In this document: positions 7,097 to 16,760 of the stretch, piece by piece
Numbering within the stretch: the first letter of the stretch is position 1
Layout: each line of letters opens with the position of its first letter
Assembly (NCBI GenBank): GCA_027312165.1
Contig: DAICXN010000004.1
Span: 1 to 43,888, forward strand
Direction of reading: 5' to 3'
Source of the DNA: Candidatus Saccharimonadota bacterium
GTDB taxonomy: Bacteria > Patescibacteriota > Saccharimonadia > Saccharimonadales > Saccharimonadaceae
Length of the DNA stretch: 43,888 nucleotides
Notes under the pieces: model-generated
The model's database searches: none
Told to the model about the DNA's origin: nothing
Seen by the model: only the letters and a program-made list of their open reading frames with translations
Program-made: the position numbers and the translations under genes

Positions 7097-7621
7097 TTAC
7101 AACACGTGTCGCTGCAGCCACGCATACAATACGACGGCAGCGGCCGCTCCGACATTGATTGACCGAGTCGAACCAAACTGTTCAATAGCCACAATACTAG
7201 ATGCACTCTTGGCCAGCTCCTCTGATATGCCTGGGCCCTCTTGCCCAAAGACCAATACTGCATTTTTGGGCAGGACGCTAACGCCAAGCGGAGTAGAGCC
7301 AGCGACATTGTCTACGGCAATTATTTCGCGAGACTGCTGCTGCATTTCACCTACAAATTCTCGGACGCTATCAACGTAGTGAACATGCAGATACTTATCG
7401 GTTGCCATCGCGCCGCGCTTGTTCCACTGGCGTCGGCCAATTACGTAAACATGTCTGACCCCAAATGCATTTGCACTTCTGACAATTGAACCCATATTAA
7501 AGTCTCTCTGGGTGTTTTCTAGAGCGATAACTAGTCCGTGACCGCTCTCATCTAAGCGAGCAACGATCTCCTCTTCGGAGATATTCTTAAATTCGTCAAT
7601 TACGTTTCTCGAGTCATCCAT
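7097..7621 (-). CDS. TrmH/SpoU-family RNA methyltransferase
   Basis: NTQRDFNMGSIVRSANAFGV, VFGQEGPGIS, STRSINVGAAAAVVLY SPOUT motifs. Confidence 0.9.
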   Translation of the reverse strand: MDDSRNVIDEFKNISEEEIVARLDESGHGLVIALENTQRDFNMGSIVRSANAFGVRHVYVIGRRQWNKRGAMATDKYLHVHYVDSVREFVGEMQQQSREIIAVDNVAGSTPLGVSVLPKNAVLVFGQEGPGISEELAKSASSIVAIEQFGSTRSINVGAAAAVVLYAWLQRHVL

Positions 7622-11614: not shown

Positions 11615-13438
11615 ATGAAAAAACCTGAATACATTCGAAACATCGCGATAATCGCTCACGTCGACCACGGCAAGACTACTATGGTCGATGGGCTACTTAA
11701 GCAATCTCAAACCTTTCGCGATAACCAAGCCGAGATGAGCCAAGAGCTTATCATGGACTCTGGCGACCAAGAACATGAGCGCGGCATTACCATCACGGCC
11801 AAGCAAACCTCGATCTATTATAAGGACTACAAGATCAATGTGATTGACACACCAGGACACGCCGACTTTTCTGGCGAAGTTGAGCGAACTCTCAACATGG
11901 CTGATGGCGTTCTGCTAATAGTTGATGCCCAAGAAGGACCGATGCCACAAACTAAGTTCGTGTTGTCTAAGGCTCTCGAGCTAGGGCTAAAGCCGATCGT
12001 GATTATCAACAAGATTGATAAACCAGCCCGACGAATCGACGAGGTTGAGGACGAACTGAGCGATCTGTTCCTCGAGCTTGCAACTGACGACTCACAGCTC
12101 CAGTACCCGGTTTATTATGCGATTGGGCGCGAGGGTAAGGCCTGGAAAAACCTACCGCAAGATGCCACCGAGGACGCTAGCTTGATTCCACTGTTTGAGG
12201 CAATTATTGAAGAAATCCCCGCCCCTTCAGTCGAGCAAGATGGAGACTTCCAGATGTTAGTCACTAGCCTGCAGTATGATTCTTTTCAGGGCAAATATGC
12301 CATTGGACGGATTAACCGTGGCATAGCCAAGCGCTCACTGCCCGTAAGCCTACTAAAGGACGGCCAAGTGGTCAGCTCGTCTCGAATTGACCGATTGTTT
12401 AGCTATCGCGGCCTAAATCGCGAAGAGGTCCAAGAGGCTGCTGCCGGTGATATCGTAGCTCTGGTTGGCGTAGACGACGCACATATCGGCGACACTATAG
12501 CCGACAAGGAAAATCCCGAGGCCCTACCAACTATTGAAATTGAAGCGCCTACACTGAGCATGTACCTAGGTCCGAACACCAGCCCGATGAAGGGTCGCGA
12601 AGGTGAGTTTACCACCTCTCGCCAGATCGGCGAACGATTGACGCGCGAGCTCGAAACCAATGTGGCACTTCGGGTAAAAGAAAACGGGATCGGCTTTACT
12701 ATCTCAGGTCGCGGTGAACTTCACTTGAGCGTACTGATTGAAACTATGCGCCGTGAAGGTTTTGAGTTTGAAGTCGGCCGCCCACAGGTGGTTACTATCA
12801 CCGAAGATGGTATTGAAAAAGAACCAGTCGAGGAGCTGCTGATTGAGGTATCCAGTGAATTCGTTGGCGTAATCAGCCAAGAACTTGGAGCGCGACGTGC
12901 AGAAATGCGCGGCCAAGAGACCACATCAACCGGCGCAGCCCGTCTGACTTACATCCTACCGACACGAGCACTCATTGGCCTAAGGAACACACTGCTTACT
13001 GCCACCAAGGGTACCGTTATCATGAATAGCCTGCCTCACGGCTACCAGCCAGTTGCGGGCAAGCTGCCAAGGACTCGAAATGGCGTATTGATCGCCTACG
13101 AAGCCGGCACAACAACACCATACGCCCTCGAAATGGCGGAAGCTCGGGGCGAGCTGCTGGTAGGTCCTGGGGTTGAGGTATACTCTGGAATGATTGTCGG
13201 CATATACAATCGCCAGGAAGATCTCGAGATTAACGTATGTAAAGCCAAGCATCTGACCAACATGCGCTCAAAGTCTAGCGACGGAACAGTTCAGCTAACG
13301 CCATTTACTGACTTAAGTCTCGAACAGGCGATCGACTTCATTGAGGATGACGAGCTGCTAGAGGTGACTCCAAAGAACCTGCGTCTTCGCAAGCGCTATC
13401 TCGACGCCAATGAGCGAAAGCGTCACAACAAGAATTAA
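11615..13438 (+). CDS. typA: Translational GTPase TypA/BipA
   Basis: IRNIAIIAHVDHGKTTMVDGLL, HERGITITAK, DTPGHADFSGEVER; C-terminal TypA domain. Confidence 0.97.
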   Translation: MKKPEYIRNIAIIAHVDHGKTTMVDGLLKQSQTFRDNQAEMSQELIMDSGDQEHERGITITAKQTSIYYKDYKINVIDTPGHADFSGEVERTLNMADGVLLIVDAQEGPMPQTKFVLSKALELGLKPIVIINKIDKPARRIDEVEDELSDLFLELATDDSQLQYPVYYAIGREGKAWKNLPQDATEDASLIPLFEAIIEEIPAPSVEQDGDFQMLVTSLQYDSFQGKYAIGRINRGIAKRSLPVSLLKDGQVVSSSRIDRLFSYRGLNREEVQEAAAGDIVALVGVDDAHIGDTIADKENPEALPTIEIEAPTLSMYLGPNTSPMKGREGEFTTSRQIGERLTRELETNVALRVKENGIGFTISGRGELHLSVLIETMRREGFEFEVGRPQVVTITEDGIEKEPVEELLIEVSSEFVGVISQELGARRAEMRGQETTSTGAARLTYILPTRALIGLRNTLLTATKGTVIMNSLPHGYQPVAGKLPRTRNGVLIAYEAGTTTPYALEMAEARGELLVGPGVEVYSGMIVGIYNRQEDLEINVCKAKHLTNMRSKSSDGTVQLTPFTDLSLEQAIDFIEDDELLEVTPKNLRLRKRYLDANERKRHNKN

Positions 13439-16461: not shown

Positions 16462-16537
16462 GGCTCTTTAGCTCAGTTGGTAGAGCAGAGGCCTGAAGAG
16501 CCTTGTGTCCCCAGTTCAAGTCTGGGAGGAGCCACCA
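16462..16537 (+). tRNA. tRNA-Phe (anticodon GAA)
   Basis: GGCTCTT...GAGGC-CTGAAGA-GCCTT...GTTCAAGTC...AGGAGCC-A-CCA. Confidence 0.95.
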
Positions 16538-16545
16538 AAGAAAAC

Positions 16546-16569
16546 ACCTGACTTATGTCGGGTTTTTTC
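16546..16569 (+). terminator. Rho-independent terminator after tRNA-Phe
   Basis: ACCTGAC-TTAT-GTCGGGTTTTTT. Confidence 0.8.
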
Positions 16570-16597: not shown

Positions 16598-16626
16598 TTG
16601 CAAATAACTGCGCTGTTTAGTAAAAT
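16598..16626 (+). promoter_or_regulatory. tRNA-Gly promoter TTGCAA-17-TAAAAT
   Basis: Boxes at 16598-16603 and 16621-16626. Confidence 0.7.
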
Positions 16627-16644: not shown

Positions 16645-16720
16645 GCGGGTATAGCTCAGTTGTTAGAGCGCTTCCTTGCCATGGAAGAGGCCTGGAGTTA
16701 GAGTCTCCATACCCGCACCA
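16645..16720 (+). tRNA. tRNA-Gly (anticodon GCC) with T19/A56 elbow
   Basis: GCGGGTA...CTTCC-TTGCCAT-GGAAG...TGGAG-TTAGAGT-CTCCA...TACCCGC-A-CCA. Confidence 0.95.
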
Positions 16721-16734
16721 AGACTAGCGACTTA

Positions 16735-16760
16735 AAGAGATGGTATTGCCATCTCTTTTT
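16735..16760 (+). terminator. Rho-independent terminator after tRNA-Gly
   Basis: AAGAGATGG-TATTG-CCATCTCTTTTT. Confidence 0.85.

Follow-up and report, generated by a model that had tools for sequence, protein, structure and literature searches.

The tertiary pair between G19 of the D-loop and C56 of the T-loop is among the most conserved features of tRNAs, and it is contacted by the ribosome, by RNase P and by many proteins. A tRNA-Gly(GCC) gene of Candidatus Saccharimonadota has T and A at these two positions, which raises the question of whether such an elbow marks a decaying tRNA, one diverted to another task, or a translating tRNA in which an altered pair is maintained. The original prediction, made on the 43,888-nucleotide stretch of DNA analyzed here (the window), favored compensated covariation over decay and put forward two possible causes, a specialized role of the staphylococcal type and lineage-specific drift. 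The compensated character of the change has been confirmed, and neither of the two causes has fared well.

The tRNA-Gly(GCC) Gene and Its Elbow

The gene lies on the forward strand of the window, at 16645..16720, and comprises 76 nt with its encoded CCA. It was called as Gly(GCC) by both ARAGORN and Rfam (RF00005), with 16720 or 16717 as its end, and it is the top-scoring tRNA in the window (67.6 bits, for a gathering threshold of 29). The 8-nt D-loop, AGTTGTTA (bases 14-21; 16658..16665, +), and the 5-nt variable loop make the standard positions unambiguous. At base 19, almost universally G, the gene has T (16663, +), and at base 56, almost universally C, it has A (16700, +), a Watson-Crick partner for T19. 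G18 is kept in the D-loop, as are T54, T55, and A58 in the T-loop, TTAGAGT (bases 54-60; 16698..16704, +), and the discriminator is A73 (16717). Every stem pairs, as judged from the sequence and from Rfam, and neither the broken stems nor the uncompensated changes of a tRNA pseudogene were found. A promoter-like site, TTGCAA-17-TAAAAT (16598..16626, +), and a terminator-like hairpin followed by a T run (16734..16758, +) were picked up by scans, the former being a consensus match and no proof of a promoter. The neighboring tRNA-Phe(GAA) gene (16462..16537, +) has the canonical G19-C56 pair and a terminator-like hairpin of its own (16546-16563), and all four other tRNAs of the window have G19/C56. 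The two bases, the canonical state of the other four tRNAs, and the intact stems and CCA are as originally described; the promoter and terminator, also described as intact, are represented by the matches above.

Cloverleaf, stems, GCC anticodon, G18, T54-A58, encoded CCA, and the presence of a single translating gene are common to this tRNA and the canonical bacterial elongator tRNA-Gly(GCC), from which the copy found in the class (Saccharimonadia) differs by having U-A or A-U in place of G-C at 19-56. Elsewhere in the window, 7097-7621 (-) encodes a SpoU-family RNA 2'-O-methyltransferase (PF00588, 1e-28), possibly a tRNA or rRNA methylase.

A Sole Gene for GGU and GGC

The genome to which the window belongs (665 kb in 35 contigs, 89.5% complete) yielded 36 tRNA matches. 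No second, canonical tRNA-Gly(GCC) is among them: Gly(GCC) is represented by one gene, and Gly(UCC) and Gly(CCC) have canonical elbows. Similarly, relatives with single-contig genomes (e.g., G125, G043, G079, and G023) have just one tRNA-Gly(GCC) gene each. The codons GGC and GGT account for 70% of the 732 Gly codons in 25 window ORFs, and the only gene available for them has a full cloverleaf and a GCC anticodon, with a score above the Rfam threshold. That this gene is the sole one of its kind, that its codons are used so heavily, and that phage copies share its elbow (see below) all argue for a working elongator tRNA. As far as sequence can tell, it would be an ordinary elongator, the only reader of GGU and GGC in the cell, in which T19/A56, and class-wide an A/U pair, stands where G19-C56 is expected.

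Only Gly(GCC) and Pro(UGG), the latter with A19-U56, depart from G19-C56 in this genome; a match miscalled as Val/Cys shows GGTAG and GGTTCGAATCC, i.e., a canonical elbow. A simple rule by which a strong anticodon goes with a weak elbow was rejected, since Ala-GGC, Pro-GGG, and Gly-CCC, whose anticodons consist of G and C throughout, keep G19-C56. The tRNA-Pro(UGG) gene, located outside the window (G000:C14:885-960, -), has a compensated A19-U56 pair with an 8-nt D-loop; much of the family shares A19-U56 in this tRNA, and other members of the class have G19-C56. The A/U states of tRNA-Pro(UGG) and tRNA-Gly(GCC) vary separately across the class. A class-wide pattern for A/U elbows in other isoacceptors gave no matches, but its frame fits only Phe among the tRNAs of the window's own genome and is too narrow for this zero to carry weight.

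Distribution of the Replacement

Matches resembling tRNA-Gly were found in 150 of 151 related genomes. Ninety of the relatives' tRNA-Gly(GCC) genes were read and 89 were parsed with stem checks; T19/A56 is present in 74 of the latter and A19/T56 in 15, with no other combination. The covariation of 19 and 56, for which a test among relatives had been suggested, is observed, and the recurrence of the same two bases excludes an assembly error and chance. The discriminator is A73 in all 89, and the 21 stem pairs are formed in every one of them except L115 (G081:C14:35606-35681), in which A58 is replaced by G and a C2-C71 mismatch interrupts the acceptor stem, possibly because it is a decaying copy or contains a sequence error.

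A tRNA-Gly(GCC) pattern that requires C56 matched in only one of 393 class genomes, G619. That copy, with G19-C56, is 33 bases away from the start of its contig and has T73 and a different body; as it looks foreign on these three grounds, it was set aside as a native exception. When any base was allowed at 19 and 56, the pattern matched in 154 of 165 class genomes, all listed rows being T/A or A/T; 50 rows chosen to span lineages were parsed by script and comprise 28 T/A and 22 A/T. Every readable native tRNA-Gly(GCC) in the class carries U19-A56 or A19-U56. In other classes of Patescibacteria, the same pattern retrieved 52 genes, 50 of them with G19-C56 (by inspection) and two with A19-U56 (G233 and G186). 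The U19-A56 form occurs in 16 of 287 genomes of the phylum, all inside the class, and in none of 262 outside it. No description of a class-wide replacement of the Gly(GCC) elbow was found in the open-access literature searched.

One relative has, about 4 kb from its normal gene, a near-copy with a CCC anticodon and U19-A56 (L126; G048:C3:117912-117987), apparently a glycine tRNA that was duplicated and recoded. The tRNA-Gly(GCC) gene is often found at a contig end (G019, G071, G080 with two copies, and G100), which would suit an integration site or a position within a repeat at which assemblies break.

Switches between the Two Orientations

The TypA protein, which is encoded in the window (11615-13438), was used to build a tree of 90 class genomes. 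On this tree 15 switches between U-A and A-U are needed, at least 10 of which are forced by strongly supported (starred) branches; these counts are rough, because they come from a one-gene tree with many weakly supported forks and with A-U genomes included on purpose, and they could be too high if members of the class have exchanged tRNA genes horizontally. No switch to G-C or C-G was seen among the changes on the tree of these 90 genomes. In two genomes of one genus (G016 and G072), the 76-nt tRNAs are unlike only at 19 and 56, and in further pairs of genomes these two bases are the sole differences over 61 nt. Pairing has thus been kept through many flips across the class, in agreement with compensated covariation and not with decay.

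The path from A-U to G-C takes two transitions by way of G-U, while that from A-U to U-A takes two transversions. As G-C is reachable by transitions, neutral wandering should often have restored it; with equal odds for G-C and for the reversed A-U pair at each switch, the probability of missing G-C 10 times out of 10 would be about 0.001. A pair that flips its orientation and yet excludes the native G-C points to selection rather than decay.

Phage-Borne Copies

Three IMG/VR contigs (L149, L152, and L157) carry, in the stretch examined, one tRNA each, and in all three it is a tRNA-Gly(GCC) with U19-A56 and A73 (L149:10074-10150, L152:4146-4222, and L157:766-841). Their phage genes include RecT, FtsK/PDDEXK, ParB-like proteins, and endolysins; in L149 and L157, the tRNA gene adjoins RecT and a PDDEXK nuclease-FtsK fusion. 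The bodies of the phage tRNAs differ from one another and from the copy in the window's genome. Hosts within the class are suggested for these phages by A73 and U19-A56 only. Phage-borne copies of Gly(GCC) fit a translational role.

Proposed Selection for a Weak Pair and Its Alternatives

Four observations have to be accounted for: the covariation is compensated, G-C is excluded throughout the class, the orientation has flipped repeatedly, and copies are borne by phages. The reading favored here, with a rough probability of 0.45, is that selection holds 19-56 of the sole Gly(GCC) as a Watson-Crick pair of two hydrogen bonds, and not as G19-C56. For the class as a whole, the notion of a selected, obligatory weak elbow in tRNA-Gly(GCC), with A-U or U-A required and G-C unusable, is proposed tentatively.

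A historical account, in which one change in the ancestor of the class was followed by wandering between nearly equivalent Watson-Crick states, gains from the fact that A-U is evidently tolerated, A19-U56 having arisen separately in other bacteria and in the tRNA-Pro(UGG) of part of the class. It makes the drift of the original prediction unlikely, however, that at least 10 and up to 15 switches occurred with no return to G-C (about 0.001 if G-C was an equally likely target), that tRNA-Pro in the same genomes does vary between G-C and A-U, and that no native G19-C56 tRNA-Gly(GCC) was found nested among A/U lineages in 393 class genomes. Alternatively, the loss of G19/C56 might hide tRNA-Gly(GCC) from a protein or RNA that reads these bases, such as the C-Ala domain of AlaRS. 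This antideterminant is conceivable because the tRNA resembles tRNA-Ala(GGC), the two having D-stem and anticodon stem in common in the window's genome, as well as A73. There is also a precedent in Caenorhabditis elegans, whose C-Ala reads G18G19 and binds about 10-fold worse to a compensated mutant, with AA for G18G19 and a change of C56, that still folds (PMC10485164). That evidence concerns a eukaryotic AlaRS, though, and G3-U70, the main AlaRS identity element, is absent from tRNA-Gly, while Gly(UCC) and Gly(CCC) have A73 too and yet keep G19-C56, so that such a function is quite unlikely. Avoidance of a T-loop modification through the loss of C56 (pseudouridine 55 by TruB, or m5U54) is highly improbable. 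Of 41 relatives, 35 encode TruB, the window's genome among them, and the TruB consensus, GUUYRANYC, leaves out A56 and admits U56 (PMC7912444); the A19-U56 form thus fits it, and two interchangeable forms should differ in their recognition by TruB, which led to the rejection of TruB avoidance as a common cause.

The staphylococcal non-proteinogenic tRNA-Gly species are donors for cell-wall bridges, and an elbow that favors FemAB-type aminoacyl ligases, for bridge formation or peptide synthesis, would by analogy make the present tRNA a dual-use glycyl donor. Likened by general description, both are tRNA-Gly species with an altered elbow in a genome that encodes a ligase of this type. The FemX/MurM-like transferase that had been suggested as an accompaniment is indeed present, as a FemAB-type protein of 306 aa (G000:C31:9717-10637, -; Pfam FemAB PF02388, 5e-26) with weak similarity to FemA, FemX, and an aminoacyl-tRNA-dependent peptide synthase, and FemAB proteins were found in 41 of 61 relatives as well as in this genome. 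In contrast to the staphylococcal species, the window gene is no extra copy beside a canonical one, its elbow motif is not lost (19-56 is compensated, and G18, T54, T55, and A58 are kept), and as the sole tRNA-Gly(GCC) it must read GGU and GGC. Phage copies carry U19-A56 too, and the A/U elbow is kept in at least nine near-complete genomes (≥93%) in which FemAB was not detected (G035, G095, G097, G099, G100, G103, G104, G110, and G113), so that FemAB as the sole cause was rejected. The gene thus appears not to encode a non-proteinogenic tRNA of the staphylococcal type; it may have a secondary use as glycyl donor, but an elbow shaped by that use is very unlikely. FemAB-type ligases are common among these epibiont-like relatives and multiplied in places, the number of matched stretches reaching about 11 in G023.

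To return to selection for a weak pair, either A/U orientation is allowed and neither G-C nor C-G is seen, which suggests that the property under selection would be weak closure of the pair and not which base stands at 19 or at 56. With U19-A56 or A19-U56, the pair would be weaker yet still formed, and the elbow softer. As two hydrogen bonds are common to U-A and A-U and not to G-C and C-G, a softened elbow is the best guess for why G-C is excluded. Alternatively, C19-G56 could be absent because G56 is not tolerated, and not because the pair has to be weak. The effect would probably be exerted at a step in which Gly(GCC) is engaged by its elbow, either on the ribosome or by a tRNA-processing factor. 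The ribosome touches the tRNA elbow in all three of its sites, and a destabilized elbow slows translocation (reviewed in PMC4810234).

The elbow replacement is real, conserved, and unexpected, and there is strong reason to regard it as an evolutionary fact about a variant tRNA-Gly, not as a new kind of molecule. A natural, class-wide swap mainly in one isoacceptor indicates that pairing, and not the bases, can be what is conserved, and that the standard G19-C56 pair can be denied to one tRNA. If the favored reading is true, translation would be tunable, separately for each tRNA, through how tightly the universal elbow lock is closed, and phage copies would be held to this as well; the class offers a direct way to test what elbow strength contributes to decoding and translocation.

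Altered Elbows in Other Bacteria and in Other tRNAs

When about 85,000 genomes were scanned for genes with A or T at 19 as well as at 56 and a base other than G at 26, a restriction that avoids the class, 39 DNA stretches were retrieved (L160-L198), all of them A19-U56; no U19-A56 was seen under these terms. The holders are Sporolactobacillus, Pullulanibacillus, Jeotgalicoccus, Clostridium tepidiprofundi, an Arcobacteraceae MAG, Flavobacteriales MAGs, and two further MAGs. A-U elbows thus arise repeatedly in tRNA-Gly(GCC). In Sporolactobacillus, Pullulanibacillus, Jeotgalicoccus, and C. tepidiprofundi, the compensated A-U pair at 19-56 is found in the same isoacceptor as in the class, and T-box riboswitches that read tRNA-Gly elbows are known in these lineages. 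Copies of the Sporolactobacillus type differ from those of the class in that they belong to scattered lineages, have the A-U orientation only, and carry T73, whereas the class has both orientations and A73; T73 was read in the copies from Sporolactobacillus and Jeotgalicoccus, and in that of G619. Natural tRNAs without G19-C56 also include tRNA-Pyl and metazoan mitochondrial tRNAs (PMC7609411). In those, G18/G19 and the T-loop motif are lost and the elbow is rebuilt in another manner, whereas in the class a single pair is swapped for another Watson-Crick pair.
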